The translations under genes and the position numbers were made by a program. This document shows positions 10,297-34,859 of a DNA stretch of 37,447 nt, piece by piece. The stretch spans positions 1 through 37,447 of the forward strand of contig JAGVGM010000094.1 in assembly GCA_020057065.1 (NCBI GenBank), in the 5' to 3' direction. Source of the stretch: Thermodesulfovibrionia bacterium. Lineage in GTDB: Bacteria > Nitrospirota > Thermodesulfovibrionia > UBA6902. Positions within the stretch are counted from its first letter, which is position 1. Every line of letters starts with the position of its first letter. The notes under the pieces are model-generated. The model ran no database searches and was not told the DNA's origin. It worked only from the letters and a program-made list of their open reading frames with translations.

Positions 10297-10297
10297 A

Positions 10298-12094
10298 GTG
10301 GCAAAGAAGATCAAGATTGTAACAAAGAAGCAGAAAAGCCTCAAAGATTTTGAGGCAGCATTTCATCATTACCAATCAGGCAATTTCAGACAGGCTGAAA
10401 TGATCTGCAGGCAGATATTGCAGAAGCAGCCAAATTATTCCGAAGTATTGCACCTTCTCGGCATCATTACGGCGCAGATCGGGGAGCATGATAATGCCGT
10501 CCGGTATATTGAAAAGGCCATTCAGATAAATCCACATATGTATTTTTACTATAACAGCCTCGGGCTTGTACTTTCAGACAAGGGTCTTTTTGATGAAGCA
10601 ATCGAAAATTATAATAAAACTTTGAAATTAATGCCCGATAATGTCGCAGCATACAATAATCTGGGGCTGGCGCTTGCAGAAAAAGGCCTGCTCAATGAGG
10701 CTGTTGAAAATTATAAAAAAGCTTTAATTCTAAAGCCGGATGATGCCGAGGTATACAACAATCTGGGTCTGGCGCTTGCAGAAAAAGGCCTGCTTGATGA
10801 GGCTGTTGAAAATTATAAAAAGGCTTTAATGTTAGCCCCTGATTATGCTGCAGCATATAACAACCTGGGGAATTCTTTAGCGGATCGGGGTCTCCCTGAT
10901 GAGGCTATAGAGAACTTTAAAATGGCTTTAACATTAAAGTCCGATTATGCAGAAGCATACAGTAATCTTGCAGGTACACTGAAAAACAAGGGCCGTGTGG
11001 ATGAGGCTATAGAAAACTACAATAGGGCTTTGAAACTAAAACCCCATAATGCTGATATGCATAATAATCTGGGAATGGCATATCTCCTTGCAAAGAATTT
11101 TGATAAAGGATGGGAAGAATATGAATGGAGACTGGGAACTATGCACGTTGCGCCCCTCATAAAACCGAAATGGGACGGTGGTTCCCTTGAAGACAAGGTT
11201 ATCCTTGTCCATGCCGAACAGGGATACGGTGATACATTACAGTTCGTTAGATACCTGCCGTTACTGTATGAATCGGGAGCCGGAAAGGTTCTATTCAAAC
11301 TCAACAAACAAGGGTTAGAACAGTTACTCAGAGGAAGCGAACTTAAAGCAGAGATAATCGATCTTTCGATTCCTGATGAAATTCTTGATATCGACACCAA
11401 TATTCACCTTGTGAGTCTGCCCGGAATATTCAAAACAAACCTTGAGAACATTCCTTTTAGGCAGAAAAGGTATCTTAAGGCAAATCCTGAGAGGGTTGAG
11501 TGGTATAGGGAGAGGTATTTCACAGACACCCTTCGACAAGCTCAGGGCGACAATGATGTCGTGGTGAGCATGTCGAACCATGACAGAGCAGCGGACTTGT
11601 CACTCGTCACTCGTCACTCGTCACTAATAAAGATCGGCATCTTCTGGCAAGGAAATCCTACTTTAAAACCTGATCGAAACAGGTCCATGCCGTTACATCA
11701 TTTTTATCCTATCTGTAGATTACCGAACGTAAAGGTATATTCATTACAAAAGGGATATGGTATAGAACAGCTAAACGACCCACCTGAAGATATACAGATA
11801 GTGAATCTTGGCGAAACCTTCAACAACTTTTCAGACACGGCAGCGGCTATAGAGAATTTTGATATAGTAATCACAATTGACACTGCAGTCGCCCATCTTT
11901 CAGGCGCATTAGGAAAAAAGACATGGATACTATTACCATCACATGCTGAATGGCGCTGGCATCTTGATATGGATTACAGCCCCTGGTATGAGGATGTAAG
12001 GTTGTTCAGACATAAGGAACCGGGCAAGAAAGACTGGGATGAGATGATGGAAAGAGTGGTAAGACAGGTAGAGGCAGAGATTAAAAACAGGTAG
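10298..12094 (+). CDS. TPR-repeat glycosyltransferase, GT9-like (heptosyltransferase-type) C-terminus
   Basis: About 598 residues. Eight 34-residue TPRs (typical unit YNNLGLALAEKGLLDEAVEN) lead to a GWEEYEW cap near 271, then a GT-B domain of the GT9/heptosyltransferase type: EQGYGDTLQFVRYLP in the first half, KIGIFWQG at 445 and DTAVAHLSGALGKKTW in the second half. The GTG start at 10298 is preferred. GGAG lies 6 bases upstream (10288-10291), it follows the previous stop directly, and it gives an AKKIKI N-terminus like the next gene's. An ATG at 10241 in the same frame would overlap the SEC-C codons of the upstream gene. The linker before KIGIFWQG carries a 36-residue insert (11522-11629) made of a palindrome and a heptamer array. 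Donor and acceptor are unknown; the TPR arm suggests a protein partner. Confidence 0.88.
   Translation: MAKKIKIVTKKQKSLKDFEAAFHHYQSGNFRQAEMICRQILQKQPNYSEVLHLLGIITAQIGEHDNAVRYIEKAIQINPHMYFYYNSLGLVLSDKGLFDEAIENYNKTLKLMPDNVAAYNNLGLALAEKGLLNEAVENYKKALILKPDDAEVYNNLGLALAEKGLLDEAVENYKKALMLAPDYAAAYNNLGNSLADRGLPDEAIENFKMALTLKSDYAEAYSNLAGTLKNKGRVDEAIENYNRALKLKPHNADMHNNLGMAYLLAKNFDKGWEEYEWRLGTMHVAPLIKPKWDGGSLEDKVILVHAEQGYGDTLQFVRYLPLLYESGAGKVLFKLNKQGLEQLLRGSELKAEIIDLSIPDEILDIDTNIHLVSLPGIFKTNLENIPFRQKRYLKANPERVEWYRERYFTDTLRQAQGDNDVVVSMSNHDRAADLSLVTRHSSLIKIGIFWQGNPTLKPDRNRSMPLHHFYPICRLPNVKVYSLQKGYGIEQLNDPPEDIQIVNLGETFNNFSDTAAAIENFDIVITIDTAVAHLSGALGKKTWILLPSHAEWRWHLDMDYSPWYEDVRLFRHKEPGKKDWDEMMERVVRQVEAEIKNR
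11530..11579. repeat. Imperfect inverted repeat inside coding sequence (CTTCGACAAGCTCAGG type)
   Basis: Arms 11530-11551 and 11558-11579 pair at 16 of 22 positions around a 6-base loop. Core halves are TTCGACA-GCTCA and its complement. It lies in the linker of the TPR-GT9 gene and is translated in frame. It resembles a common dispersed bacterial repeat with the same core, from memory and not checked. Confidence 0.7.
11599..11626. repeat. Heptamer tandem array (GTCACTC)3 GTCACTA within CDS
   Basis: Four head-to-tail 7-base units at 11599, 11606, 11613 and 11620, translated as LVTRHSSL just before KIGIFWQG. Losing one unit puts TAA TAA directly after the array. Gaining one reaches TGA after about 16 codons. 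Confidence 0.95.
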
Positions 12095-12096
12095 AG

Positions 12097-12147
12097 AAAA
12101 AGGCAAGGTAGAGAGGGTAAGAACTTCTTTTCTTTACCTATACCTTT
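12097..12147. repeat. Intergenic imperfect inverted repeat with short A/G- and C/T-rich units
   Basis: Between the two TPR-GT9 genes. The left part (AGGCAAGGTAGAGAGGGTAA) is roughly complementary, with gaps, to the right part (TTTACCTATACCTTTACC). It could form a long imperfect hairpin or be a degenerate short tandem repeat. It does not look like a classical terminator because no T-run follows a GC stem. Confidence 0.45.
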
Positions 12148-12170
12148 ACCTTTCTTATAGTTTTGAGACC

Positions 12171-14084
12171 ATGGCAAAGAAGATAAAAATTAAACCAAAG
12201 AAAAATCTATATTCAGACAAGAGCTTGAAAAATCCGGGCCGATTATTGCCAGGTGACGCAGAAGCCTATTTTCAGACCGGATTTGCACTTCAACAGGCAG
12301 GCAGGCTTAATGAAGCAGTGGCGCATTATAAGAAGGCTATAATGTTAAGGCCGGACAATGCCGAAGCATACAACAATCTTGGAGCGATTTTTCAGCAGAC
12401 CGGTAAACTTGATGAGGCTCTGAAGAGCTTTGAGCAGACCGTCAAACTCAGACCGGACTATGCCGAGGCCTGTTACAATCTGGGATTTGTGCTTCAACAG
12501 GCAGGCAGGCTTGATGATGCAGAGGCGTATTATAAGAGGGCCATAATGCTGAACCCTGCCGATGCCGAGACTTACAATAATCTCGGTACGATATTCCAGC
12601 ATAAAGGCAATGTAGATGAAGCGCTGAAAAATTTCAGTCTGGCTGTAAAATTAAAACCGGATTATGCAGGGGCCTGCTATAATATCGGGTTTGTTCTTCA
12701 GCAGGAAGACCGGTTAGATGAGGCCATGTTGTGCTACGAAAAGTTGCTTGAAATTGAGCCGGATCATTTTGACGCATACAATAATATGGGAATTATACTT
12801 GCTGAAAAAAATAAATTTGATGAAGCAATAGAAAAACATATGAAAGCCCTGGCCTTAAAGCCGGAGTTTCCTGAGGCATATTATAATTTGGGCAGTGTCT
12901 TTACGTACAAAGGCATGACAGAGAAAGCTATAGAGTGCTATAACAAGGCGTTGGCTTTAAAACCTGATTATGCTGATGTATACAATAACATTGGATGTGT
13001 GCTTGCGCTCAATACCAGAGGTTTTATAGATGAGGCGGTAAATAACTACAGAAAAGCTCTGGCCCTAAAACCCGATGACGCCAATATACACAAGAATTTA
13101 GCGATGGCGTATTTGCTCGTAAAGGATTTCGTTAATGGCTGGGAGGAGTATGAATGGAGGCTGAAGACCATTCTGGCTGCGCCCCTCACAAAACCCAAAT
13201 GGGACGGCGGGTTATTAGAAAACAGGACAATAATAGTCTATGCAGAGCAGGGATACGGAGATACTTTGCAATTTGTAAGATATTTACCTGTGCTCTTTGA
13301 GAATTATAAGGCAAAAAAAGTTTTGTTTATCCCTCAAAAAGGACTTGAGCAACTGCTTAAGGATAGTGACTTAAAAGCAGAGATCCTTGATGCAGAGACA
13401 CCGGTTGAGGGTCTTGAATATGACACTAACATACATCTCTTAAGCCTGCCACGCATATTTAAAACCAACCTTGAGAACATGCCGTTCAGGCAAAAGAGGT
13501 ATTTAAAGGCAAATCCTGATAAGGTGAAATGGTATAAAGAGAAATATTTTGACTCTTCACTGTTCACTGTTCACTGTTCACCGGTCTCAAATGACCCGTC
13601 ACTCGTCACTCGTCACTCGTCACTAATGAAGATCGGTATCTTCTGGCAGGGACGTCCCGGTCTGAAACCTGACAGGAACAGGTCCATGCCCCTGAAGCAT
13701 TTTTCTCCCTTGTGCAGGCTGCCGGATGTTAAAGTTTACTCATTGCAGAAAGGTTACGGCATCGAACAGCTTAACAATTTACCTGAAGGCATAGAGATAG
13801 TAAATCTCGGAGAGACCTTTAAAGACTTTTCAGATACAGCGGCGGCAATAGAGAATCTTGATTTAGTGATAACGGTAGACACGGCAATTGGACATTTATC
13901 AGGAGCTCTCGGCAAGAAGACCTGGATCCTCTTGCCGTCACATGAAGAGTGGAGATGGCATCTGGATATGGACTACAGCCCCTGGTATGAGGATATAAGG
14001 TTGTTCAGGCACAAGGAACCAGGGAAGAAAGACTGGGATGAGATGATGGAAAGGGTGGTGGAACAGGTAAAGATAGAGATATAA
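12171..14084 (+). CDS. TPR-repeat glycosyltransferase, GT9-like
   Basis: 637 residues starting MAKKIKIKPKK. About eight TPRs (residues ~25-300; units such as YNNLGAIFQQTGKLDEALKS) are followed by the GWEEYEWRL cap and a GT9-like GT-B domain: EQGYGDTLQFVRYLP, KIGIFWQG at ~487 and DTAIGHLSGALGKKTW. It is the closest relative of the upstream gene; the last ~150 residues are nearly the same. Start ATG 12171 has only a weak upstream GAG, so translation may be modest or coupled. The linker before KIGIFWQG holds a 26-residue insert (13551-13628) coded by two heptamer arrays. The gene ends 14 bases from the stop of the convergent minus-strand operon, leaving no room for a hairpin terminator. Sugar specificity cannot be read from the sequence. 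Confidence 0.88.
   Translation: MAKKIKIKPKKNLYSDKSLKNPGRLLPGDAEAYFQTGFALQQAGRLNEAVAHYKKAIMLRPDNAEAYNNLGAIFQQTGKLDEALKSFEQTVKLRPDYAEACYNLGFVLQQAGRLDDAEAYYKRAIMLNPADAETYNNLGTIFQHKGNVDEALKNFSLAVKLKPDYAGACYNIGFVLQQEDRLDEAMLCYEKLLEIEPDHFDAYNNMGIILAEKNKFDEAIEKHMKALALKPEFPEAYYNLGSVFTYKGMTEKAIECYNKALALKPDYADVYNNIGCVLALNTRGFIDEAVNNYRKALALKPDDANIHKNLAMAYLLVKDFVNGWEEYEWRLKTILAAPLTKPKWDGGLLENRTIIVYAEQGYGDTLQFVRYLPVLFENYKAKKVLFIPQKGLEQLLKDSDLKAEILDAETPVEGLEYDTNIHLLSLPRIFKTNLENMPFRQKRYLKANPDKVKWYKEKYFDSSLFTVHCSPVSNDPSLVTRHSSLMKIGIFWQGRPGLKPDRNRSMPLKHFSPLCRLPDVKVYSLQKGYGIEQLNNLPEGIEIVNLGETFKDFSDTAAAIENLDLVITVDTAIGHLSGALGKKTWILLPSHEEWRWHLDMDYSPWYEDIRLFRHKEPGKKDWDEMMERVVEQVKIEI
13556..13582. repeat. Heptamer tandem array (TTCACTG)3 TTCACC within CDS
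   Basis: Units at 13556, 13563, 13570 and a partial one at 13577, translated as SLFTVHCS. Loss or gain of one unit leads to an in-frame stop within about 15 codons on either shift: TAA at the end of the next array, or TGA in the codons after CCGGTCTCAAA. Confidence 0.93.
13598..13625. repeat. Heptamer tandem array (GTCACTC)3 GTCACTA within CDS, second copy
   Basis: Units at 13598, 13605, 13612 and 13619. The array is identical to the one at 11599-11626 and sits at the same protein position, just before KIGIFWQG. Loss of one unit gives TAA immediately; gain gives TGA after about 16 codons. Confidence 0.95.
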
Positions 14085-14098
14085 AACAGGTAAGTGTA

Positions 14099-15469
14099 TC
14101 AAGGGGTTTTACCAGGCAGCCTGCGCAATTCCTCGGTTACACTTTTTATAACCGCCTTCCAGTTGCCTGGCTCAGGTTGACGGAATAGGCGCATGGTCGG
14201 ATACCAGGGACTATCCTCTTTTTCCAGCAGCCAGCGCCAATCAGGTGAAAAACTTAAAAGGGTCCAAACCGGCCTGGCCATGGCTCCTGCTAAATGCGCT
14301 ACAGATGTATCTATAGAGATAATTAGATCCAGTTTCTCTATAACTGCTGCTGTATCCGCAAAATCATTCAATTCCCTGTCAAGATTAACAAGTGTTATGT
14401 CCCGGGGTGGTTTGTCAGCCTGATCGGCCCAGATCCCTTTTTGCAGGCTGTAGAATGTTAAACCGGATATATTCATTAAAGGAATAAACTCTTCAAAGGG
14501 ACATGAACGCGAACGCTCTTTATCTTTACTGTTTAAAAGGCCGCCGGCCCAAACAATGCCAATCTTGAAATTCTGGTCCCTGCCGAGTCTTATGCGCCAC
14601 TTTTCGGTTAAATCCGGTTCTGCAGTGATATAGGGCACATCAGCAGGTATGGTAGTGAGCCTTGTATTAAAGAGCAGCGGCAGGCTCATCAGTGAAACAT
14701 GAAAATCATATTTTATTGATGCTGTATTAATTGCTGCCAGTTCTATAATTTCATCTATACCCTTACATCCCTTCAATACCGGGAAAAGTTCCTTGTGACA
14801 CGCTAAAATCACATGAACGCTTTGCGCCTTAAGTAAAGGCAGATATCTTGCAAACTGGAATATATCGCCAAAGCCCTGCTCCTCATAGACAAGAACTGTC
14901 CTGTTATCAAGAGGTCCACCATTCCACTGAGGTTTTGTAAAAACATATTCAGGATATTCAATGATCTTCTTTCTCCACTCATACTCCTCCCAGCCTTCTT
15001 TATAGCTGCCTGACAGTAACAACGCAATTGATCTGTTCAGATGTATATCTGCATTATCAGGCTCAATTAAAATTGCGCTGGTATAACTTTCTATTGCTTC
15101 CTTTATCCTGCCCTGTTTTTTAAACACATTGCCCAGGTTGTTATAAGCCATCGCATGCTCCGGATTGAACCTTACAGCATGCATATAATTTGATATTGCC
15201 GTATCAAACCGGTCTTGCTCCTCATACAGTATGCCCAGGTTGTAGTATGCTCCGGCAAAATCAGGTTTAATTGAGATTGCACGTTGATAGCTCACAATTG
15301 CTTCATCAACTCGGCCCGATCCATAAAACACACCGCCAAGATTATTATATGCCTCAGCATGATCCGGTATCTCTTTCAGTATTGTCAGATACAGCTTCTC
15401 TGCCTCATATAGATTGCCGGACTGGCAATGTTTCATGGCCTCCTGTAAAAGACTGTTAATATCTATCAT
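14099..15469 (-). CDS. TPR-repeat glycosyltransferase, GT9-like (short TPR arm)
   Basis: 456 residues from ATG 15469 (MIDINSLLQEAMKHCQSGN). This start lies 2 bases after the upstream stop (TAACAATG). A longer in-frame start at 15523 would overlap the upstream gene by 52 bases and adds an unrelated N-terminus, so I reject it. About four TPRs are followed by GWEEYEWR and a GT9-like domain with EEQGFGDIFQFARYLP, KIGIVWAGG and DTSVAHLAGAMARPVW. The linker before KIGIVWAG is short and has no repeat insert, unlike the plus-strand relatives. It is the last gene of the seven-gene minus-strand operon and converges on the plus-strand TPR-GT9 gene. Substrate unknown. Confidence 0.88.
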   Translation of the reverse strand: MIDINSLLQEAMKHCQSGNLYEAEKLYLTILKEIPDHAEAYNNLGGVFYGSGRVDEAIVSYQRAISIKPDFAGAYYNLGILYEEQDRFDTAISNYMHAVRFNPEHAMAYNNLGNVFKKQGRIKEAIESYTSAILIEPDNADIHLNRSIALLLSGSYKEGWEEYEWRKKIIEYPEYVFTKPQWNGGPLDNRTVLVYEEQGFGDIFQFARYLPLLKAQSVHVILACHKELFPVLKGCKGIDEIIELAAINTASIKYDFHVSLMSLPLLFNTRLTTIPADVPYITAEPDLTEKWRIRLGRDQNFKIGIVWAGGLLNSKDKERSRSCPFEEFIPLMNISGLTFYSLQKGIWADQADKPPRDITLVNLDRELNDFADTAAVIEKLDLIISIDTSVAHLAGAMARPVWTLLSFSPDWRWLLEKEDSPWYPTMRLFRQPEPGNWKAVIKSVTEELRRLPGKTP

Positions 15470-15471
15470 TG

Positions 15472-17331
15472 TTACACAGCTCTGCTCAGTTCCCCGGCTA
15501 CCCGCTCCATCACAGCCTTCCAATTGTATGGTTTAGGCTGTCTGAATAATCGCATGGTCGGATACCACGGACTGTCCTCCCTTTCCAACAGCCAGCGCCA
15601 ATCAGGCACAAAAGGCAAAAGCGTCCAAACAGGTCTTGCAAGCGCACCTGCCAAATGTGCAACTGCGGTATCCACTGAAACAACAAGATCGAGATTTTCG
15701 ATTACTGCTGCGGTATCCGCAAAATCGTTTAACTCCATATCAAGATTGATGATATTCATGCCCACAGGAGGCTCAAGCGCTTGTTCCGCCCGGTTTCCCT
15801 TTTGCAGGCTGTAAAGAGATATTCCTTTTACTTTTGTCAAAGCTAAAAGATCAGCGAGTGAACAGGAACGGGCACGATCTTCTTTGTGTCCAGTGCTTCC
15901 TGCCCAGACAATGCCTATCTTAAAGTGACTATCTGAACTCATCTTTGCTTTCCATTTCTCCACTAATGCCGGCTCTGCTGTTATATAAGGAACATCCGCC
16001 GGTATCGTTGAGAGTGTTGTGTTAAATATCTTTGGCAAGCTTGCAAGCGGTACATGAACATCAAACTGTACAGACGGCTCTCTTGACCATTCTATAATTT
16101 TATCTATCCATTTAATCCTTTGCAGTAATTTACGATAATGTTTCTTATGACATTCAAAAATTATATAACCACCTTTTGCCTTAATTAACGGCAAATATCT
16201 TAGAAACTGAAAGGTATCGCCATAGCCCTGCTCGTCATAAACAAGGATGGTTTTCCCCTTTAAGGAAGCGCCATCCCATCTTGGTTGTGCAAAGGAGCGG
16301 GGTCTGCGTCCTTTCATTCTTAGTCGCCATTCATATTCTGCCCAGCCTTCATTAAAACGGCCTTTTAACAATAATATGACAGACTTGTTGAAATGGGCGT
16401 CAGCAAAGTCAGGAACAAGTGAAACTGCTTTCTCATACTGTATTAAAGCCTGTTCGAACATACCCTGCGCCTTCAAAGCTGTCCCCAAATTACTATAAGC
16501 ATCCGCATAGCCTGGTTTCAGAGAGATCGCTTTTTCGTAGCTTGCCGCAGCCTCGCTAAGCCTTCCTTGCGCCTGAAGCGTCAGGCCCAGATTATTATAA
16601 GCCCCTGCAAAATCAGGTTTGATCGAAATCGCTTTTTTCAGGTTCTCACCCGACTCTTCGTACCTGCCAAGCTCCATAAGTACAAAACCTAAATTGTTGA
16701 GTGTGTCGATATCGTCATGTTTAATAACAAGTACTTTCTTAAAACAGTTATACGCTTCTTCATATCTGCCGAGTTCCTGAAGCACAAATCCCTTCTGGAA
16801 ATATGCTTCAATATGATCCGGGTTGAGCGCAAGCGCTTCTTCGTAGCATGACAGCGCTTCATCAAAAATACCTTGCTCCTGAAACACGTTTCCGAGATTA
16901 TAGTGCGCTTCAAAGTAATCATGCTGAAGTTTGACAGCGTGTTTAAAGCTTTCCATGGCTTCGTTTAATCTACCGAGTTTCTGAAATATGATGCCTTTGT
17001 TGTTGTAGGTCTTGGCAAAGTCAGGCTGAATCAAAATTGTCTGCTCATAGCTTGCCAGTGCTTCATCAAATTTGTCCTGCTGCTGAAATAAAAAACCGAG
17101 ATTATAATGAGCCAGGGCGTAATCGGGTATTAAGTTGACGGCCTGCTGAAGAAATACTTTTGCAGGTTCAAAATTTCCCTTCTGGACATTCAGTATTCCC
17201 AAAAAGCAAAGAGCCTCAGCCTGGTCGGGATGATCTTTCAATATTGCGTGGTACATCTGTTCAGCTTCAGCCGTATTGCCGGCCTGATGATGTTCAAGCG
17301 CTGCTCTCAATAGATCGTCGCTGCCTGTCAT
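15472..17331 (-). CDS. TPR-repeat glycosyltransferase, GT9-like
   Basis: 619 residues. About nine TPRs (e.g. YNNKGIIFQKLGRLNEAMES) span residues ~5-315, then the GWAEYEWRL cap and a GT9-like GT-B domain: DEQGYGDTFQFLRYLP, KIGIVWAGS and DTAVAHLAGALARPVW. The ATG abuts the stop of the preceding gene (TAAATG, no gap), which suggests translational coupling. It is closely related to the downstream neighbour (shared TAEP-x-L-x-EKW and DFADTAAVIE stretches), so the two look like a tandem duplication that then changed TPR number. The TPR sequence differs between units more than in the plus-strand genes, suggesting an older array. No repeat insert is present in the GT linker. Confidence 0.9.
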   Translation of the reverse strand: MTGSDDLLRAALEHHQAGNTAEAEQMYHAILKDHPDQAEALCFLGILNVQKGNFEPAKVFLQQAVNLIPDYALAHYNLGFLFQQQDKFDEALASYEQTILIQPDFAKTYNNKGIIFQKLGRLNEAMESFKHAVKLQHDYFEAHYNLGNVFQEQGIFDEALSCYEEALALNPDHIEAYFQKGFVLQELGRYEEAYNCFKKVLVIKHDDIDTLNNLGFVLMELGRYEESGENLKKAISIKPDFAGAYNNLGLTLQAQGRLSEAAASYEKAISLKPGYADAYSNLGTALKAQGMFEQALIQYEKAVSLVPDFADAHFNKSVILLLKGRFNEGWAEYEWRLRMKGRRPRSFAQPRWDGASLKGKTILVYDEQGYGDTFQFLRYLPLIKAKGGYIIFECHKKHYRKLLQRIKWIDKIIEWSREPSVQFDVHVPLASLPKIFNTTLSTIPADVPYITAEPALVEKWKAKMSSDSHFKIGIVWAGSTGHKEDRARSCSLADLLALTKVKGISLYSLQKGNRAEQALEPPVGMNIINLDMELNDFADTAAVIENLDLVVSVDTAVAHLAGALARPVWTLLPFVPDWRWLLEREDSPWYPTMRLFRQPKPYNWKAVMERVAGELSRAV

Positions 17332-19683: not shown

Positions 19684-19714
19684 GAGATAAATAACTGTGC
19701 CGAACCCTGTTTAA

Positions 19715-22180: not shown

Positions 22181-22206
22181 ATTGTAATTAAGAACTTGGG
22201 TACAAC

Positions 22207-23271
22207 TTAAAAATAAACATAACAGAAGTCATACAGGTCCCATTTGGCCAGGAATTTATTCAGATCCGGTTCAAAACGTTTCCTGACCAATTCAGGGTCT
22301 TTTTTGCTCAGATCGTAGTGCATAATAACACTTGTAGGACAATAAATATTCTTATAACCGGCCTGTTGAACCCTGTAACCTAAGTCAGGGTCAATAAAAT
22401 AATGTTCGAACTGTTCATCAAGAAGACCGACTTTTTCAAAGCATTCTTTTTTCATCACGGGGGCATAGCCGTAATCACATTCCCTCGGAAAATAGAATTC
22501 GGGGAAGTTTATCAGATGCTGGCCTGTAACCTTTGCTGTGTCAATATATGACGCCCTGCCGATCCACGGGAAAGTAAAGCTTCTGTAAGGATTATATTGA
22601 CCGGGTGACTGTACCGTTCCGTCCGGATAAATTACCAGCGGAACGCCGCATCCGGCCTCAGGGTCCTCATCAATAGCTGCAACCAATGCCAAATCCCAGC
22701 CCGGCATTACTTCCATGTCATCATTTAAGAGACATATATAATTTCCCGCAGCAGCGCTCAACCCTTTATTCCAGCTTTTGACCGCGCCTGCACGGTATTC
22801 ATTTATTATTACTACTACGTCTCCTTTTCCCTGTTCCTGTTCAAGATACTCTATGGTCCCGTCATTACACGGGTCGCATACAATGATTATCTCTGCAGGA
22901 TAAAAACTGTTCCTGCGGATGCTGTCAACACATCTTTTCAATTCCAAATGCCGGTTGTAAGTGGTAATAGCAACAGAAAATTTAAATATTTTCTTATTGG
23001 AAACATCTTTAGCATTCACAGACGTAAGGTTTCGATAACTGTCTTCATTCAGGGCGTCTGAAAATATGGCTTTGTCAAGAAAGAGCCTGGCTTTCTGAAC
23101 TTCTCCTGCGGAATAAGCAATCTTACCCAGATCATTAAATACCCTGGACCTTATGAAATTTGAGAGGGTCTGGCTTGACAGGAGGCTTCCATACAGTCTC
23201 AGGGCCTCATTGATCTGCCCGCTTTTTGTTAATTCAGAGGCTCTATTGTATACTTCGCTTTCGTTCATCAT
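22207..23271 (-). CDS. GT2 glycosyltransferase with TPR-like N-terminus
   Basis: 354 residues. The first ~85 residues are helical and TPR-like (ASELTKSGQINEALRLYGSL; LGKIAYSAGEVQKARLFLDK). A GT2 domain follows from ~96: FSVAITTYNRHLELKRCVDS, IIIVCDPCNDGTIEYL and LLNDDMEVMPGWD (~180), where NDD is the likely metal-binding motif. The late block GYAPVMKKECFEKVGLLDE and DPDLGYRVQQAGY is typical of family 2 transferases. The start could be either of two adjacent ATGs at 23271 or 23268. It sits 29 bases after the preceding gene in the minus-strand operon. Donor and acceptor unknown. Confidence 0.9.
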   Translation of the reverse strand: MMNESEVYNRASELTKSGQINEALRLYGSLLSSQTLSNFIRSRVFNDLGKIAYSAGEVQKARLFLDKAIFSDALNEDSYRNLTSVNAKDVSNKKIFKFSVAITTYNRHLELKRCVDSIRRNSFYPAEIIIVCDPCNDGTIEYLEQEQGKGDVVVIINEYRAGAVKSWNKGLSAAAGNYICLLNDDMEVMPGWDLALVAAIDEDPEAGCGVPLVIYPDGTVQSPGQYNPYRSFTFPWIGRASYIDTAKVTGQHLINFPEFYFPRECDYGYAPVMKKECFEKVGLLDEQFEHYFIDPDLGYRVQQAGYKNIYCPTSVIMHYDLSKKDPELVRKRFEPDLNKFLAKWDLYDFCYVYF

Positions 23272-23300
23272 ATTCAGAACTTATTCAGGTTTTGATCTTA

Positions 23301-24263
23301 TCATCCGAATATCCTGTTTAATCTGTCAATAAGGTAAACAGCGCGCTTTGTAGTTAAATGTAAACTGCTTAAATGGCTGCGGGCCTCATGAACGACATAA
23401 CCGGTATCAAGTCTGCCGTCAAGTACGTCGTCAATCAGCCTTCTCAGTTCGTCAATATATGAAAACCGCAGGATGTGGCGTCCATTCTCAAAATCATTGG
23501 GAATGAACAGAGGCATTTTCTGCGAGATATGTACAGCGTTGCAGGCGGCGTTCTCCCAGAACCTGAATGTATCATATCCCGCTCCCCGCAGCGACAAAAC
23601 AATTCTGCATTTCTGGAGATTCATATAATAGTCGTTTCTTCCAAACCTTAGTGAGGGATTCGGATTGTCTGTAGAAGGAACCGCTGACGTCTGCAAAAGG
23701 CTGTCAGGATAAAATCTGGCGATCTGCTCAACTATGACTTTTCTTTCATCATAAAAATTGCCTGTGCTTCCAAGGAAACCAATTGAATAGGACTTCGGAG
23801 ATGTGTCATATAATGCAATCCATTGCATTATTTCTTCAGGAAGCGACATCGGCACAGGAATGCTGAAATCCGCTCCGTCTGTTTCACGGCGGCAGATAAC
23901 AAAGGAGCCCGGTTGTATGTGCACAGGAAGGTCTTCACCATCCAAAAGAACTAATCCTTGAGGACATCCCGGGGCGATACTTTGCAAAAAAGAAAAAGCC
24001 CTTATGTCACATATTATATATTTAAAAAAGCCTTTGCTGATTTTAGCATTAATATCATTTCTGTCAATCTCTCCATTATCATGCGGGAACCAATCGGGGC
24101 AAAGCTGGTACTCAGGGCAGATCCCCAGTCCCAAAACGCCCTCGTAAAGACATTCTTTCCTGGGGAAATCCACGACATCAGGTCCAAGCAGTTTCCTGAA
24201 TCCATGCAGTAGCAGGTCCGGCACATAATTTGGGTAAGGATGGGTAACAAACAAAATATTCAT
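23301..24263 (-). CDS. Putative GT-B glycosyltransferase (exostosin/CgeB-like C-terminal half)
   Basis: 320 residues starting MNILFVTHPYPNYVPDLLL, a typical first strand of a GT-B fold. The second half contains SIGFLGSTGNFYDERKVIVE, the stretch YYMNLQKCRIVLSLRG and the following GYDTFRFWENAAC, which matches the conserved region of exostosin-like or CgeB-like transferases (a glycine-rich turn, then the 'E in the active site' position). The start ATG is 1 base after the upstream stop (TGAAATG), so it is translationally coupled. I cannot assign a family number with confidence. The protein is shorter than most GT4 enzymes. Substrate unknown. Confidence 0.75.
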   Translation of the reverse strand: MNILFVTHPYPNYVPDLLLHGFRKLLGPDVVDFPRKECLYEGVLGLGICPEYQLCPDWFPHDNGEIDRNDINAKISKGFFKYIICDIRAFSFLQSIAPGCPQGLVLLDGEDLPVHIQPGSFVICRRETDGADFSIPVPMSLPEEIMQWIALYDTSPKSYSIGFLGSTGNFYDERKVIVEQIARFYPDSLLQTSAVPSTDNPNPSLRFGRNDYYMNLQKCRIVLSLRGAGYDTFRFWENAACNAVHISQKMPLFIPNDFENGRHILRFSYIDELRRLIDDVLDGRLDTGYVVHEARSHLSSLHLTTKRAVYLIDRLNRIFG

Positions 24264-24264
24264 T

Positions 24265-25008
24265 TCACTTCCCGTATATCAACCGGCCCCATTTTTCGAT
24301 AAATTTCTTCCTGTTCTCTGCAAGTATATCGTCACGATGCAACTGTCTTCCAAAATAATTGATGTGAGAGTTCCCGCTAGCGGCCTGTGATACCCCCCAG
24401 TGATGTTCAAAGTCGGTCGCAGGGACCGCATAACAGGCCAGACCTGCCTGCATTACCTGCAGGCCCATATCCCATTCCTCGAAAAAACACGGGCTGAACC
24501 GGATATCAAACATAAGTTTGTGTGAAAGAAACCTCTCGGCGTGAACAGCAAAGAAAAAACCTGAAACGTCATGTGTCTGTACAGGGGCATTAAATGTGCC
24601 TTTTTCAAAATACTTAATCATCTGGAGCTTTTGATAATCGATGTGTGTGCCCTGCGGACCTACAAGCACTGCATTGTGAAGACTGAAAAGATAGTATTCA
24701 AGCATTTCAATAACAGGCAATTTTATTTTCAAGTCTGCATTAAGTATGAAAACCGTCTTGCCTTCAGACAGGTTGATACCGATATTCCACGACCTGCTTA
24801 CGCCGGCATTTAAGTTGTTGAAACAGTACTTGTTTATTCGGTTGTGGGAATGCAATTCATTATAAACTTCAGGGCTGTTGAAAATACAAATTACCTCACC
24901 GGGAATATCTGTAAGGTCCTCAAGTAAAGTTCTTATATTGTATGGACTGTGCGGAGAGAAGTCCAGGACCGGGATAACAAAGCTCCTGACAGGCCGATCG
25001 CTACTCAT
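24265..25008 (-). CDS. GT2-like glycosyltransferase, first gene of minus-strand operon
   Basis: 247 residues. It starts with SFVIPVLDFSPHSPYNIRTL, then EVICIFNSPEVYNEL, NNLNAGVSRSWNIGINLSEG and FILNADLKIKLP (~87; NAD in place of the usual DxD), ending with FFEEWDMGLQVMQAGL and a late His-rich segment. This is the layout of GT2 (GT-A) enzymes, although the first 'DDGS' motif is not conserved. A strong GAGGAGG (25024-25030) lies upstream, but 15 bases before the ATG, longer than usual. It is divergent from the 1199-residue TPR-GT gene across a 162-base intergenic region. Substrate unknown. Confidence 0.82.
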   Translation of the reverse strand: MSSDRPVRSFVIPVLDFSPHSPYNIRTLLEDLTDIPGEVICIFNSPEVYNELHSHNRINKYCFNNLNAGVSRSWNIGINLSEGKTVFILNADLKIKLPVIEMLEYYLFSLHNAVLVGPQGTHIDYQKLQMIKYFEKGTFNAPVQTHDVSGFFFAVHAERFLSHKLMFDIRFSPCFFEEWDMGLQVMQAGLACYAVPATDFEHHWGVSQAASGNSHINYFGRQLHRDDILAENRKKFIEKWGRLIYGK

Positions 25009-25064
25009 ATTTAAAAAAACAAGCCTCCTCGCAATGTTTGATTTAAAAAACCCCGAGATTTATC

Positions 25065-25070
25065 ATTATA
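25065..25070 (-). promoter_or_regulatory. Possible -10 box for minus-strand operon
   Basis: TATAAT read on the minus strand, about 57 bases upstream of the ATG at 25008. No good -35 box lies at 16-18 bases, so the assignment is tentative. Confidence 0.35.
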
Positions 25071-25083
25071 AAAACAATCTGCT

Positions 25084-25113
25084 ATGATAGAGATTCGATT
25101 ATTTTTGTATAAT
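25084..25113 (+). promoter_or_regulatory. Likely sigma-70-type promoter for TPR-GT9 double gene
   Basis: ATGATA (25084-25089; 4 of 6 to the -35 consensus), an 18-base spacer and a perfect TATAAT (25108-25113), about 57 bases upstream of the ATG at 25171. Confidence 0.5.
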
Positions 25114-25170
25114 AACATATATTCCTTCATTTGCGAGCGAACAGTATTAAAAGACATCTGAGAATACATA

Positions 25171-28100
25171 ATGGACAAAAATACCATTAAAACGGCCCTG
25201 CAGTATTTTCAATCAGGGGATATTTACCGGTCTGAAAAGATATGTAAATCCATCCTGCAGAAAGAACCGGATAATTCCGAGATTCTGCATCTTGTCGGAC
25301 TTATAGCGGGTCAAGGCGGAAGATTTGATGAAAGCATCGATTACATCACAAAAGCGGTACGCACAAATCCATATGTATATTCTTATTATAATAATCTCGG
25401 TCTGGCATATAAGTTCGTAAAACGTTTGGATGAAGCGATAGAAAATTTCAGTAAGGCCATAGAACTGTTTCCCGGTTTTGCAGGGGCGTATAACAATCTT
25501 GCAATAGCCCTTGCTGAAAGGGGACAAGAGGATGAAGCGCTAGAGAATTTTAAAAAGGCGTTGACGCTCAAACCTGACTATACTGAAGCGTATTTTAATC
25601 TGGGGAGGATCTATGCAGGCCGAGAGAAAGAGGATGAGGCGATAGAAAATTTCAGTAAGGCTTTAGTATTCAAGCCTGATTATGCCGATGCATATTTCAA
25701 TATCGGGCTTTTATATATAAAAAAAGGGTTGACTGATGAGGGCATCGAAAATTATAAAAAGGCGTTAATATATAAACCGGATTATGCGGAAATATACAAT
25801 AATCTCGGTACTGCGCTCTGGAGCAAAAGGCTGATTGATGAAGCAGTGGATAACTTCAGAAAAGCTTTAAGTTTGAAAACGGATTTTGCTGAAGCATACA
25901 ACAATCTCGGGCTTGCGCTTTCGGAAAAGGGTTTTCTCCATGAAGCTGTTGAGAATTATAACCGTGCTCTTGAGTTAAGACCTGATTTCGCAGAGGCATA
26001 TAACAATCTCGGATATGCTCTTGCAGAAAGCGGCAATTTAGATGAAGCCATAACAAATTGTTTAAAGGCGCTGCAGTTAAAGCCGGATTTTGCAGGAGCA
26101 TATAACAACCTTGCAAATGCCTTTAAAGACAACGGCCTGATACATAAGGCAATAGAAAATTATAACATGGCGCTGATGCTCAAGCCTGATGACCCCGAGA
26201 TACATAAGAATCTTGGAATGACATATCTGCTGATTAAGGATTTTGACAAAGGATGGGAAGAATACGAGTGGAGGCTTAAAACCATCCCGGGTCAGGCCCC
26301 TCCTCTTGTAAAACCAAAATGGGATGGAACTGTTCTTAAAGACAAAGCTATTCTCGTCTATTCTGAACAGGGATGCGGAGACAACATACAATTCGTCAGA
26401 TATTTATCAAAACTCCGGGATGAATACAGCGCAGCAAAAATCTTATTTATCCCTTACAACGGCTTGGAACAATTATTTAGAGAAAGTAATTTGGGAGCAG
26501 AGATACTGGATGCATCAACACCTGTTGAGGACCTTGTGTTTGACACAAACATTCATTTGTTAAGCCTCCCGGGGATATTTAAAACAGATTTTGAAAACAT
26601 ACCGTTCAGGCAAAAGAGGTATCTAAAGGCTAATGAAGAGAAAGTCAGGAAGTATAAGGAGAAGTATTTTAATAACACACCCCTATCCCCTCTTGATAGA
26701 GGGGAATTATGTCCCCCTTTGGAAAAGGGGGATGTAGGGGGATTTTGTAATGATAAACTCAAAATAGGCATCTTCTGGCAGGGGAGCCCGGGATTTAAAC
26801 CTGACAGAAACCGTTCCATGCCCCTGAAGAATTTTTACCCCATATGCAGACTGCCGCATGTTAAGGTTTATTCCCTGCAAAAAGGGGAAGGAATAACGCA
26901 GCTTGACAACCTTCCCGAAGACATAGAAATAGTCAATCTTGGAGAGACCTTTAATGATTTCTCGGACACGGCGGCCGCAATAGAAAATCTGGATATTGTT
27001 ATTACTATTGATACCGGCGTTGCGCATTTATCAGGCGCCTTAGGGAAAAAGACGTGGATACTGCTTCCTTCTTATACAGAATGGAGATGGCCTCCGGATA
27101 TGGATTACAGTCCGTGGTATGAAGATGTGACTTTATTCAGACACAGGGAGCCTGGTAAAAAAGACTGGGAAGAGATGATGCAGCGGGTTAGCGGACATCT
27201 TTTTCATCTTCTCGGTCTCAGAGCATATGAAGAAGGACTATATGACAATGCCATCACTTATATCAGCCGGGCTATTCAGATAAATCCCCGTGAATTTCTC
27301 TACTTCTATAATATCGGAGTATCCTTTGCAGCCAAAAACAGTATAGATGAAGCCTTAGATAGCTTCAGAAAGGCCCTCGATTTAAATCCCTTTTATGCAG
27401 AAGCCTATAATAATCTCGGCCTTGCACTTGCAAATAAAGGCCTGATATCTGAAGCGATTGACAACTACAATAAGGCTCTGGAACTAAACCCCGATTCTGC
27501 AGAAGCCTATAATAATCTCGGCCTTGCACTCGCAAATAAAGGCCTGATATCTGAAGCGATTGACAACTACAATAAGGCTCTGGAACTAAACCCCGATTCT
27601 GCAGAAGCCTATAATAATCTCGGTAATGCTTTTGCGGACCTGGAAATGTTGGATGAAGCGGTAAACAACTTTAAAAAAGCAATAATGCTAAAACCTGATT
27701 TCATAGCGGCTTATTATAATCTCGGCATTGTATTTTCAGACCAGGGGATGCTTCAGGAGGCCATTCAAAATTATGAGAAGGCGTTATCATTAAACAATGA
27801 TTTTGCAGAAGCGCATTTGAATGTAGCATACGTATATCTCCTTTCAAAGAACTTTGAAAAAGGCTGGGAAGAGTATGAATGGAGACATCAGGTTCTTAAA
27901 ACACGTTTGCCCCTGACTTCAAGACCTAAATGGGATGGAAGCTCCCTTGATAATAAAACGATATATATATATCCCGAGCAGGGATACGGGGATACCATAC
28001 AATTTGCCAGATATTTACCCTTACTCAGATCTGCGGGAGTAAAAAAAGTGCTGTTTGAACCGCATAAGGGAATGGAACAGTTATTCAGGGAAAACGATTT

Positions 28101-28770
28101 GAATGCGGAAATCGTCGATCCCTCAATAAACGAGAACTCTCTTGATTTTGATGTGCACTTTCCACTTTTAAGCCTGCCGTTGATATTCAAGACAAATCTT
28201 GACAATATACCCTTCAAACAACAAAGGTATTTTAATGCAAACCCGGAGAAGGTTGCGTGGTACAGGGAGAAGTTCTTCGCCCCTATCCCCTACACCCTAT
28301 CCCCTGCACCCTTTAGGATTGGCATCTGCTGGCAGGGCAATCCTTTGATGGAGCGTGACAGAAAAAGATCTGTGCCTCTGCGCTGTTTATATCCGCTCGC
28401 AAAGATCCCGGGTGTCAAACTTTATTCATTTCAAAAAGGCCCCGGAATAGAGCTGCTTGATAACTTGCCGGAGGATATCGAAATAGTAAACCTCGGCAGA
28501 ACCTTCAATGACTTTTCGGATACTGCAGCAGCATTAGAGAATGTGGACATTTTAATTACCATCGATACAGCAGTCGCCCACTTATCAGGCGCTTTAGGGA
28601 AGAAGACCTGGATACTGCTTCCCTTTTATGCGGAATGGCGATGGTTTTCAGATTCGGACCCAAGCCCCTGGTATGAAGATGTAAGATTGTTCAGGCACAT
28701 GAATAAAAAGGACTGGGATGATATGATGGAGAGGGTAATTGAACGGCTGAAGGAGGAGAAAAATCAATGA
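25171..28770 (+). CDS. Double TPR-GT9-TPR-GT9 glycosyltransferase
   Basis: 1199 residues containing two complete TPR-glycosyltransferase units. Unit 1: about ten TPRs (residues ~4-350), the GWEEYEWRL cap at ~360, then a GT9-like domain with EQGCGDNIQFVRYL, KIGIFWQG at ~531 and DTGVAHLSGALGKKTW at ~614. Unit 2: about six TPRs from ~677, GWEEYEWRH at ~898, then a second GT9-like domain with EQGYGDTIQFARYLP, RIGICWQG at ~1049 and DTAVAHLSGALGKKTW. Unit 1 replaces Y and T of EQGYGDT by C and N, so its activity may differ. The joint is seamless (MMQRVSGHLFHLLGLRAYEEG), consistent with gene fusion. Both GT linkers carry repeat inserts (26671-26760 and 28279-28314). The ATG has a weak ribosome-binding site. 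The stop overlaps the next gene as ATGA. Confidence 0.9.
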   Translation: MDKNTIKTALQYFQSGDIYRSEKICKSILQKEPDNSEILHLVGLIAGQGGRFDESIDYITKAVRTNPYVYSYYNNLGLAYKFVKRLDEAIENFSKAIELFPGFAGAYNNLAIALAERGQEDEALENFKKALTLKPDYTEAYFNLGRIYAGREKEDEAIENFSKALVFKPDYADAYFNIGLLYIKKGLTDEGIENYKKALIYKPDYAEIYNNLGTALWSKRLIDEAVDNFRKALSLKTDFAEAYNNLGLALSEKGFLHEAVENYNRALELRPDFAEAYNNLGYALAESGNLDEAITNCLKALQLKPDFAGAYNNLANAFKDNGLIHKAIENYNMALMLKPDDPEIHKNLGMTYLLIKDFDKGWEEYEWRLKTIPGQAPPLVKPKWDGTVLKDKAILVYSEQGCGDNIQFVRYLSKLRDEYSAAKILFIPYNGLEQLFRESNLGAEILDASTPVEDLVFDTNIHLLSLPGIFKTDFENIPFRQKRYLKANEEKVRKYKEKYFNNTPLSPLDRGELCPPLEKGDVGGFCNDKLKIGIFWQGSPGFKPDRNRSMPLKNFYPICRLPHVKVYSLQKGEGITQLDNLPEDIEIVNLGETFNDFSDTAAAIENLDIVITIDTGVAHLSGALGKKTWILLPSYTEWRWPPDMDYSPWYEDVTLFRHREPGKKDWEEMMQRVSGHLFHLLGLRAYEEGLYDNAITYISRAIQINPREFLYFYNIGVSFAAKNSIDEALDSFRKALDLNPFYAEAYNNLGLALANKGLISEAIDNYNKALELNPDSAEAYNNLGLALANKGLISEAIDNYNKALELNPDSAEAYNNLGNAFADLEMLDEAVNNFKKAIMLKPDFIAAYYNLGIVFSDQGMLQEAIQNYEKALSLNNDFAEAHLNVAYVYLLSKNFEKGWEEYEWRHQVLKTRLPLTSRPKWDGSSLDNKTIYIYPEQGYGDTIQFARYLPLLRSAGVKKVLFEPHKGMEQLFRENDLNAEIVDPSINENSLDFDVHFPLLSLPLIFKTNLDNIPFKQQRYFNANPEKVAWYREKFFAPIPYTLSPAPFRIGICWQGNPLMERDRKRSVPLRCLYPLAKIPGVKLYSFQKGPGIELLDNLPEDIEIVNLGRTFNDFSDTAAALENVDILITIDTAVAHLSGALGKKTWILLPFYAEWRWFSDSDPSPWYEDVRLFRHMNKKDWDDMMERVIERLKEEKNQ
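26680..26745. repeat. REP-like palindromic element inserted in coding sequence
   Basis: Two palindromes: CCCCTCT-TGAT-AGAGGGG (26687-26704) and CCCCCTTT-GGA-AAAGGGGG (26713-26731), then a GTAGGGGGATTTT tail. The second unit and its tail match the element at 37349-37386. It is translated in frame (residues PLSPLDRGELCPPLEKGDVG) in the linker of the first GT9 domain. Confidence 0.9.
27397..27600 (+). repeat. 102-bp tandem duplication of one TPR unit
   Basis: Bases 27397-27498 and 27499-27600 are identical except one synonymous T/C difference (27429 versus 27531). The next 23 bases, up to 27623, continue the match. Each copy encodes one 34-residue TPR (AEAYNNLGLALANKGLISEA...). It is a recent in-frame duplication. 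Confidence 0.95.
28281..28311. repeat. Degenerate heptamer array CCCTATC-CCCTACA-CCCTATC-CCCTGCA-CCC within CDS
   Basis: Four 7-base units plus a partial fifth, coding the proline-rich linker PIPYTLSPAP before RIGICWQG. A one-unit gain gives TAG almost at once; a one-unit loss reaches TGA after about 12 codons. Confidence 0.92.
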
Positions 28771-34303: not shown

Positions 34304-34844
34304 GGCGTTAATTGTAATGATACCCCTCGCAGTCCTCCTGCTTGGTGTAGTCGCGTATCAGTACGGCTACCTGAAAATCAGGTCGGAAATGACCGCTCTC
34401 AAAGAAGAAGAGGAAATGAAGACAAAAATCCTCGGAAAGTACATTAACCTGATATCAAAGATCCCTGAGATGGAAAAGGAATTTACAGAGAAGAGTCATC
34501 TGAGAGAGTTTTATAAAACGGAGCTCTTGCAAGGGGAAACTGATGCAATCGCAGCCGCAGCGCTTCAGGACCTGGTCAAAGGCCTTTTAATCAGCAGGGG
34601 GGGGAAGATATCCCGTGAACTGATCGGTCCGCCTGCTGAAATGGGGAAATTTAAAATTGTAAACATAAGCCTGGACGCCTCGATGCCTGACGTCAGGGTC
34701 CTGAGCGATGCAATCTATTCTGTAGAAACCAATAATAATCCATCGCTCTTTATCAACGATATAGATATAAGAGTTAAAGACCTTAAAGAGCCTCGTGAAC
34801 TTATAGTAAAACTAAATGTATCTGCCATGACAGGCGGAAAATAA
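34290..34844 (+). CDS. gspM: GspM/PilO-like inner-membrane type II secretion protein
   Basis: 184 residues with one N-terminal membrane segment (LIVMIPLAVLLLGVVAYQYGY), a charged coiled-coil (EMTALKEEEEMKTKILGKY) and a C-terminal ferredoxin-like region (KFKIVNISLDASMPDVRVLSDAIYS is its core, shown in part). This is the layout of GspM (T2SSM_b) or PilO, which pair with GspL or PilN. It overlaps the gspL-like gene by 14 bases, so it is translationally coupled. The family call is by size, topology and position rather than a diagnostic motif. Confidence 0.7.
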   Translation: MKNSKALIVMIPLAVLLLGVVAYQYGYLKIRSEMTALKEEEEMKTKILGKYINLISKIPEMEKEFTEKSHLREFYKTELLQGETDAIAAAALQDLVKGLLISRGGKISRELIGPPAEMGKFKIVNISLDASMPDVRVLSDAIYSVETNNNPSLFINDIDIRVKDLKEPRELIVKLNVSAMTGGK

Positions 34845-34859
34845 ATTATAGGGAGCAAG

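Follow-up and report, generated by a model that had tools for sequence, protein, structure and literature searches.

Why should DNA repeats of unlike families lie in frame at the same position of several related glycosyltransferase-like proteins? This question is raised by the window analysed here, a stretch of 37,447 nucleotides from a Thermodesulfovibrionia bacterium (Nitrospirota), in which three plus-strand ORFs carry four GT9-like modules. ORF 1 (10241..12094) and ORF 2 (12171..14084) each encode a TPR array and a GT9-like module (module 1, W_2, 11036-12031, and module 2, W_3, 13065-14030), and ORF 3 (25171..28770) encodes two TPR-GT9-like units in tandem (module 3, W_0, 26185-27162, and module 4, W_1, 27796-28716). 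Two TPR-GT9-like relatives are located on the minus strand (W_4, 14099..15523, and W_5, 15472..17331). Counting the hinge from the conserved Y[LI]xA to IGIxWxG, modules 1 to 4 have hinges of 54, 44, 48 and 30 aa, and the minus-strand relatives of 23 aa each. The initial annotation had placed repeat DNA at one homologous hinge in all four plus-strand modules, and a DNA check, TRF and the alignment of the six modules confirm this. The same alignment shows the minus-strand relatives to be free of a repeat insert, as had been claimed, with EKW and KIGIVWAG almost contiguous. The net excess over the minus-strand relatives, 31, 21, 25 and 7 aa, is smaller than the insert sizes first reported (36, 26, 30 and 12 residues).

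The content of each hinge is different. The insert of hinge 1 (11522..11629, plus strand) is formed by an imperfect palindrome of the TTCGACAAGCTCAGG family (11532-11577, spanning 46 bp with arms of 21 nt) and a GTCACTC array (11595-11628), and that of hinge 2 (13551..13628, plus strand) by a TTCACTG array (13552-13586) and a GTCACTC array (13594-13627). Hinge 3 (26671..26760, plus strand) holds the palindromes CCCCTCTTGATAGAGGGG and CCCCCTTTGGAAAAGGGGG / CCCCCTTTNNNAAAGGGGG, a pair lying inside a 64-bp repeat interval (26687-26750), with its last ten bases counted as non-repeat by that interval. Hinge 4 (28279..28314, plus strand) holds a CCCTATCCCCTACA array of degenerate CCCTAC heptads, detected by TRF as 14-bp units at 28281-28312; it falls below our strict heptad test, with a lag-7 identity of 0.71 against a threshold of 0.75. 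The GTCACTC arrays of modules 1 and 2 are equal in length, phase and 3' junction and are absent from both orthologues in the congener G005; furthermore, G005 and the congener G009 each have one array common to two paralogues. Arrays held in common reduce the number of independent captures, and the proposal of four independent insertions therefore stands only in part. A conversion tract wider than the array was rejected for modules 1 and 2, since the sequence just 3' of the hinge shows no unusual identity (66-75 % in each 60 nt). An assembly artefact is unlikely, as 0 of 22 matches contain an internal stop and the pattern recurs in separate assemblies.

The hinge inserts are members of repeat families dispersed in the genome. 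In 601,448 bases of the window's genome, the window included, there are 31 arrays of period 7, against none in each of five first-order Markov controls (two N stretches removed) and 0 to 9 arrays for each other period from 4 to 15. These heptad arrays are dispersed 7-bp tandem units of the kind seen in STRR, the heptanucleotide tandem repeats of cyanobacteria; inverted pairs of such arrays, considered as a general element, involve only 3 of the 31. The CCCCCTTTNNNAAAGGGGGA palindrome has 173 plus-strand and 176 minus-strand matches in the genome at no more than one mismatch (reversed pattern, 1/2), and most sites match both strands, giving about 175 sites, with the same estimate for CCCCCTTTNNNAAAGGGGG. 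At the same stringency TTCGACAAGCTCAGG has 10 genome sites and its reversed control none. On the other side, exact GTCACTC triplets (GTCACTCGTCACTCGTCACT) occur only at hinges 1 and 2 in the whole genome, and elsewhere the unit is accompanied by variants. These counts, set against the reversed and Markov controls, rule out chance composition as the source of the inserts.

Comparison within the genus shows that two repeat families are found at hinges in line with their abundance in the genome. For the CCCCCTTT palindrome, the window's genome has 173/176 matches and three congeners have 7/7, 3/3 and 9/11; the palindrome sits at a hinge in the window, and at none in the modules read from the other three genomes. 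CCCTAC arrays number 2/2 in the window's genome against 14/18 in G005 and 14/14 in G009, and the filled hinges of G005 (two) and G009 (two) all bear CCCTAC. The GTCACTC arrays break this rule, with counts of similar magnitude in the four congeners, 12/10, 5/10, 7/16 and 7/18 (reversed control in the window's genome 10/9, which is high), and with hinge copies only in the window's genome among the modules read; this counts against the explanation that we favour below. All six modules have orthologues in G005 with the order kept and a support of 0.90 to 1.00 for the six pairs. The hinge differs in each of the four plus-type pairs: W_0/L238_8 with 48 and 30 aa, W_1/L238_9 with 30 and 23 aa (empty in G005), W_2/L239_11 with 54 and 23 aa (one CCCTACACCC unit remaining in G005) and W_3/L238_10 with 44 and 37 aa. 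G005 thus has CCCTAC arrays in two of these hinges, and of the other two one is empty and one nearly so. The minus-type pairs, W_4/L238_7 and W_5/L238_6, are alike at 23 aa in both species. Across the genus 10 of the 12 plus-type modules, as defined by the tree, are filled, and CCCTAC-type units are found at hinges in all four congeners, mostly with a common 3' end, e.g. CCCTTAAA or CCCTTTA.

We extended the comparison to 192 modules that have the [EQ]QGx[GS]D and xxWY motifs and are not cut off at a contig end. Among the partial modules outside the counts are L094 (SURF_11), whose hinge carries TTGCAAC/TTTCAAC, L097 and L104. Hinges of at least 28 aa are found in 10 of 17 modules of the window's genus and 22 of 50 in Cyanobacteria, in neither of the two modules from other genera of the same family, and in 4 of the remaining 123. 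The initial annotation named a conserved, non-repeat hinge of the same length in homologues as a refuting result; 115 of those 123 modules keep to 21-24 aa, close to the usual length of about 23 residues, and the insert is therefore a derived state. The tight length outside the repeat-bearing genomes could reflect constraint rather than a missing supply of repeats. The inserted hinges are 28 to 119 aa long and differ in sequence, and a tree built without the hinge gives 20 all-inserted clades and 14 Fitch changes. Insertions of at least 8 aa affect the hinge (then at least 31 aa) in 26 of 192 modules, whereas the remaining 271 consensus columns taken together show one in 11 of 192. Of 36 inserted hinges, 19 pass a strict test for heptads or palindromes; a similar though not identical test is passed by 6 of the 350 control windows taken from modules that lack an insert. 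The 17 inserted hinges that fail include module 4, and some of them hold a repeat by count (L128_73). In Cyanobacteria the hinge repeats belong partly to other families than in the Nitrospirota genus, e.g. the GGGCTGAAGCCCTACTACGAAC repeat, with 310/287 matches (at most two mismatches) in the cyanobacterium G061 and none in the window's genome.

The hinge is not the sole acceptor of repeats. A second loop of a module carries a palindrome in G005, and the 601-kb sample (406 ORFs, 496,614 bases, two N-made false ORFs excluded) contains 24 other in-ORF repeat sites; a simple ORF caller places 10 of its 25 heptad-bearing sites well within ORFs of at least 150 aa. The CCCCCTTT copies are likewise found in other ORFs, making this a dispersed palindromic family inside genes, in the manner of the Rickettsia palindromic elements (RPE). 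Coding positions outside the hinges hold repeats too, though at a much lower density.

In an AlphaFold model both halves are confident and the insert forms a low-confidence loop, with a pLDDT of 53 for residues 171-190 where the model averages 90.8, although the low value may be due in part to the few alignment rows covering the insert. Among the matches listed, at least three of the five window proteins score above the cut-off of 22 for the Pfam profile Glyco_transf_9, with 31.9, 24.0 and 27.2 bits, and they match the profile in its C-terminal part. The four top-ranked Foldseek hits are 3tov, WaaC and WaaF chains (3tov with an E of 5.7e-9 and a TM of 0.57), and the model accordingly shows the GT-B fold of heptosyltransferases. 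These GT9 fold matches have 10-14 % identity, and no PDB chain was matched by sequence profile at E 0.01; 2vsn, an OGT homologue, is a weak fold match (E 3.4e-3). The window enzymes are predicted to be GT9-like glycosyltransferases of the GT-B type placed behind a TPR array, with the hinge connecting their two Rossmann-like halves.

In-frame repeats occur at this hinge in several species of one Nitrospirota genus and in Cyanobacteria. We propose, with a probability of about three in four, that they result from untargeted capture filtered by the tolerance of the protein, followed by copying between paralogues. Dispersed repeats, both short palindromes and 7-bp tandem arrays, would enter genes at many places and most would be removed, whereas at an exposed flexible hinge an in-frame, stop-free insert would survive, so that the hinge would fill with the repeats active in that genome. 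Arrays may later grow or shrink and may be copied between the hinges of paralogues; short-tract recombination, with the conserved IGIFWQG-coding DNA as its anchor, is a conceivable route. The insert itself is most likely harmless and otherwise of little consequence, although it may alter the flexibility of the hinge slightly. The tolerated landing pad suggested at the outset is supported by the recurrence in congeners and Cyanobacteria, by the differences between orthologues and by the low-confidence loop between confident halves.

The other suggestion made at the outset, active targeting, in which a hinge motif, secondary structure or resident repeats would attract further repeats at the DNA level, found no support and seems to us improbable. 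Repeats do nest: where about 0.07 neighbours per element would be expected, 11 of the 25 heptad-bearing sites have at least two elements inside 150 bp. Two or three unlike elements occur together in the hinges of modules 1 and 2 and in several cyanobacterial ones, and arrays are common to paralogues with the same junction in three genomes. The flanks of filled Nitrospirota and cyanobacterial hinges are however not alike: upstream only 1 of 283 9-mers is common, the best common words of the IGIxWxG-coding downstream flanks occur in 1 and 2 modules, and mean identity is 0.22 upstream and 0.48 downstream (IGIxWxG) against 0.64 in the EQGxGD control. Moreover, other loops and genes hold repeats as well, and the minus-type paralogues of the same cluster are empty in both species. 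The boldest proposal, unlikely though deserving more weight than targeting, is that the hinge became a true hot spot of repeat capture and exchange. A resident repeat would serve as a homology anchor to which other repeats are attracted and by which arrays spread from paralogue to paralogue. The TPR-GT9 family would then have an evolvable linker whose content is dictated by the repeats of each genome, and this linker would have arisen separately in the Nitrospirota and in the Cyanobacteria.

Selection for function is a little less likely than such a hot spot. A longer proline/threonine-rich or hairpin-coding hinge might be favoured, for example because it alters domain motion or substrate range or makes translation pause between the two folding halves, and the filling of most plus-type modules in the genus, the suitability of PTPYTLHP-like peptides as flexible linkers and the modelled position of the hinge at a domain boundary would agree with it. 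Against this stand the empty and nearly empty G005 orthologues, the spread of lengths and sequences among inserts and the short hinge kept by nearly all remaining modules. Least probable of all, and by a wide step from capture, is a single ancestral CCCTAC hinge array altered by slippage, point change and conversion without repeated capture: the CCCTAC-type units with their mostly common 3' end would fit, but the palindromes and the GTCACTC, TTCACTG and TTGCAAC/TTTCAAC units look underivable from CCCTAC by slippage, and further families occur in Cyanobacteria. Since the hinge palindromes belong to families with copies elsewhere in the genome, such an array is untenable as the sole account, and it was likely the first step within the genus.

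These hinges represent a natural, replicated experiment in the conversion of repetitive non-coding DNA into protein. Repeats of unlike families have entered one homologous position of a large family in two distant groups, whereas elsewhere in the family the position mostly stays at about 23 residues, and repeat supply, set by the genome's repertoire, is separable from tolerance, set by the protein position, both being measurable. There is also a warning for annotation, as a peptide like VTRHSSL, PTPYTLHP, SPLDRGE or VIPAKAGIQ in a protein can be a translated genome repeat.

In-frame repeat capture is already known, and our literature searches gave no description of its recurrence at one homologous hinge. 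Two reviews describe RPEs and other MITEs as dispersed palindromes in frame inside unrelated protein genes, RPEs being ~105-150 bp with a conserved peptide (PMC10969869, PMC2229807). The hinges share with them the dispersed palindromic DNA in frame within genes, but in place of one family with terminal inverted repeats and a conserved peptide they show a 46-bp palindrome, a 64-bp palindrome pair and heptad arrays, with unlike families and peptides at one homologous hinge. For the TAACTGA repeat of Beggiatoaceae, 10 sets are reported to lie within ORFs, an RNA polymerase beta'-like protein is reported to carry units in one of its surface loops, and tolerance between subunits of modular proteins is raised as a possibility (PMC4679880); in another study heptanucleotide repeats are given as under-represented in coding regions (PMC4692102). 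Like STRR, TAACTGA and the GGGAATC repeats of Xanthomonas and Nostoc, our arrays are dispersed 7-bp tandem units; the known ones, as far as the accessible texts go, are single families and mostly intergenic, whereas here many 7-mers meet at one hinge in two phyla. The window enzymes resemble the GT9 heptosyltransferases (WaaC, WaaF, TibC, 3tov) in fold and in the Glyco_transf_9 profile, and differ from them by the N-terminal TPR array and the repeat-coded hinge. O-GlcNAc transferase (OGT, GT41) combines a TPR array with a two-lobed GT-B enzyme bearing extra sequence between the lobes, an architecture that the window enzymes share; its intervening domain is folded and conserved, whereas the hinge inserts differ from one another, vary, and form a low-confidence loop in the model.

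The window, a single contig of 37,447 bases in an assembly of 4.16 Mb and 377 contigs, carries four TPR-GT9-like modules in three plus-strand ORFs and one each in two minus-strand ORFs. Repeat DNA fills the hinge between the two halves of all four plus-strand modules, as the initial annotation had proposed, and both its position, between a helix ending in Y-[RK]-E-[RK]-[YF]-F and a strand beginning with [KR]-IGI-x-WQG, and its in-frame state are established. On the plus strand, module 1 (11522-11629) contains a TTCGACAAGCTCAGG-type palindrome and a GTCACTC array, module 2 (13551-13628) a TTCACTG and a GTCACTC array, module 3 (26671-26760) two C/G-rich palindromes and module 4 (28279-28314) a CCCTATCCCCTACA array; together they comprise no fewer than five dissimilar kinds of element. 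The module alignment revealed no repeat insert in the hinges of the minus-strand relatives W_4 and W_5, in agreement with the same annotation. Elsewhere in the window, a 102-bp tandem duplication with 99 % matches within the TPR array of ORF 3 (27396-27623) is a recent gain of TPR units, and positions 31797-37207 hold genes which, judging from their translations, we take to resemble components of type II secretion (K-, L- and D-like).

An AlphaFold2 model (58 sequences; mean pLDDT 90.8) shows a helix at residues 151-162 followed by a loop, with a pLDDT of 53 over residues 171-190, and then the strand 192-197 that starts the second half. The insert is thus predicted to be a low-confidence loop, few alignment rows in this region lowering the confidence in themselves. 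Foldseek placed the GT9 enzymes 3tov, WaaC and WaaF at ranks 1-4, TibC lower, and an O-GlcNAc transferase homologue as a weak match; a sequence-profile search of PDB chains gave no match at E 0.01.

The window's hinge inserts are dispersed genome repeats, and repeat identity is established for these hinges and several others. Allowing one mismatch, the CCCCCTTTNNNAAAGGGGGA palindrome has 173 plus-strand and 176 minus-strand matches genome-wide (reversed control, 1 and 2), corresponding to about 175 sites, most of them matching on both strands, and TTCGACAAGCTCAGG has 10 (control, 0). Arrays of the form TCACTNN gave 46 overlapping matches at the same tolerance, for which the reversed control is uninformative, being the identical pattern. 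Exact GTCACTCGTCACTCGTCACT occurs in the genome only at the hinges of modules 1 and 2, its variants being dispersed. In a sample of 40 sequences (601,448 bases; the window and 39 other stretches of its genome) we found 31 period-7 arrays, built on many different 7-mers, versus none in five Markov controls and 0 to 9 arrays for every other period in the range 4 to 15; the 9 of period 14 are partly of the same kind. The repeat density of this sample may be high, since many of the larger stretches come from contigs known to bear repeats.

Matches at E 1e-40 or better were found in 6 of the 61 genomes searched: that of the window itself, its congeners G002, G005 and G009, and two further members of the family. 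By motif we collected 192 distinct modules from the window, its congeners, 79 loci (from the best 80 of 561 relatives) and cyanobacterial loci, the latter from the order of the genome containing the cyanobacterial locus L128, where 29 of 194 genomes matched at E 1e-60. Counting from the conserved Y[LI]xA to IGIxWxG, the hinge reaches at least 28 residues in 10 of the 17 modules of this genus, in neither of the two modules that represent other genera of this family, and in 4 of the remaining 123 (three Azospirillum modules and one of Spartobacteria), 115 of which have 21-24 residues; this remainder belongs mostly to other phyla, with one Gastranaerophilales locus and a small number whose titles read Nitrospirae, Nitrospira or Nitrospiraceae. 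For Cyanobacteria the fraction, 22 of 50 modules from 28 loci, is no unbiased rate, because the genomes were chosen as relatives of L128, whose hinge had already been seen to be filled, and fetching five of them further on account of their several modules adds to the bias. This comparison demonstrates that filled hinges recur in congeners and Cyanobacteria, and recurrence in a second phylum is established.

The hinge is not the only acceptor. Insertions of at least 8 residues outside it occur in 11 of the 192 modules (13 sites in 271 columns), versus 26 modules whose hinge exceeds 23 residues by at least 8. The clearest such case, L238_10, the G005 orthologue of module 2, bears, in a loop of the N half that is a second acceptor, a palindromic insert of 40 residues, together with a CCCTAC array at the hinge. 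An N-terminal-half loop insert like that of L238_10 (contig C63) was also seen at loci L106 and L095. Repeat elements of the own-genome sample merge into 122 sites, which a simple longest-ORF caller placed as 74 intergenic, 27 well within ORFs of at least 150 residues and the other 21 at the ends of ORFs or within short ones. The 27 include three of the window's hinges; the remaining hinge, whose period is 14 bp, escaped the detector. If the 27 were evenly spread over the 406 ORFs (496,614 bases, stretches of N removed), four 69-nt hinges would hold 0.015 sites, against the three observed; this figure was computed after the pattern had been noticed, so that congeners and Cyanobacteria provide the better test. 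The other 24 in-ORF sites show that repeats are not confined to hinges. With Pfam matches from ten scanned ORFs as a guide, we take the proteins bearing these other sites to include PrmC-, AddA-, AddB-, Mfd-, EPSP synthase- and MurJ-like proteins and one of cytochrome c type. In frame within the PrmC-like methyltransferase ORF (L225:13476-14489, contig C90 of the same genome) are a pair of heptad arrays at 13845-13920 and, at 14111-14162, a REP-like palindrome. At L251:9894-9956, immediately ahead of the BcrAD_BadFG domain in a 1451-residue ORF, a GCAGTCA array runs directly into a GTAGGGGCGGGTTT palindrome.

Hinge content was compared with each genome's repertoire (plus/minus matches). The window's genome has an amplified set of CCCCCTTT palindromes (173/176, versus 7/7 in G002, 3/3 in G005 and 9/11 in G009) and, judging from the modules read in the four congeneric genomes, is the only one with this palindrome at a hinge. 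CCCTAC arrays, with 14/18 matches in G005 and 14/14 in G009, are present in both filled hinges of each, and are rarer in the window's genome (2/2) and G002 (5/2). In the cyanobacterium G140 this pattern has 891/853 overlapping matches and occupies three of five hinges, and in the cyanobacterium G061 a GGGCTGAAGCCCTACTACGAAC repeat with 310/287 matches is also found at a hinge. GTCACTC departs from the repertoire pattern, its counts being similar in magnitude across the four congeners. The G140 locus L248 has five modules with nested hinge repeats, three alike (GGGTGTA and CCCTACA in opposite sense) and two with other heptads; two modules carry C-half loop inserts of 15 and 23 residues, the latter of 12-bp repeats.

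In a tree with hinge columns left out, the six window modules pair with six of G005 (support 0.90 to 1.00), in identical order along both contigs. Hinges of modules 1 to 4 measure 54, 44, 48 and 30 residues in the window and 23, 37, 30 and 23 in G005, those of W_4 and W_5 being 23 in both; differences between orthologues are thus established, and all plus-type hinges, but no minus-type hinge, have been altered since the species split. On the tree of all 192 modules the inserted state requires 14 changes (20 all-inserted clades), compared with 28 to 36 in 200 shuffles of the labels; it is therefore partly inherited. The elements are indeed unlike, but the proposal of four independent insertions fails as one event per module: modules 1 and 2, 70 % identical in DNA, have in common a GTCACTC array of equal length, phase and 3' junction, missing in both G005 orthologues. 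The G005 modules L238_8 and L238_10 likewise have a CCCTAC array end in common, and the two G009 modules an array. Array sharing most likely arose when paralogues recombined over short tracts, with the conserved DNA that codes for IGIFWQG as the anchor.

As to active targeting, also suggested initially, no common DNA target is visible when filled hinges of the genus are compared with those of Cyanobacteria, given a mean identity of 0.22 over 45 nt upstream and 0.48 over 45 nt downstream (EQGxGD control, 0.64) and one of 283 upstream 9-mers in common. In the own-genome sample, 11 of 25 heptad-bearing sites have at least two elements within 150 bp, where about 0.07 neighbours are expected; existing repeats may therefore aid the entry of further ones. 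We favour a process in which repeats would enter genes untargeted, harmful insertions would be lost and those at the hinge would persist.

Hinge filling is a real, reproducible pattern whose recurrence in orthologues and across phyla is surprising, though its cause is likely ordinary. Our literature search, covering few subscription papers, found no report of repeated repeat capture at one homologous hinge. In-frame palindromic elements are reviewed for Rickettsia genes (PMC10969869, PMC2229807), G-rich heptamers are described as under-represented in coding regions (PMC4692102), and sets of heptamers are reported inside ORFs, with tolerance suggested between the subunits of modular proteins (PMC4679880).
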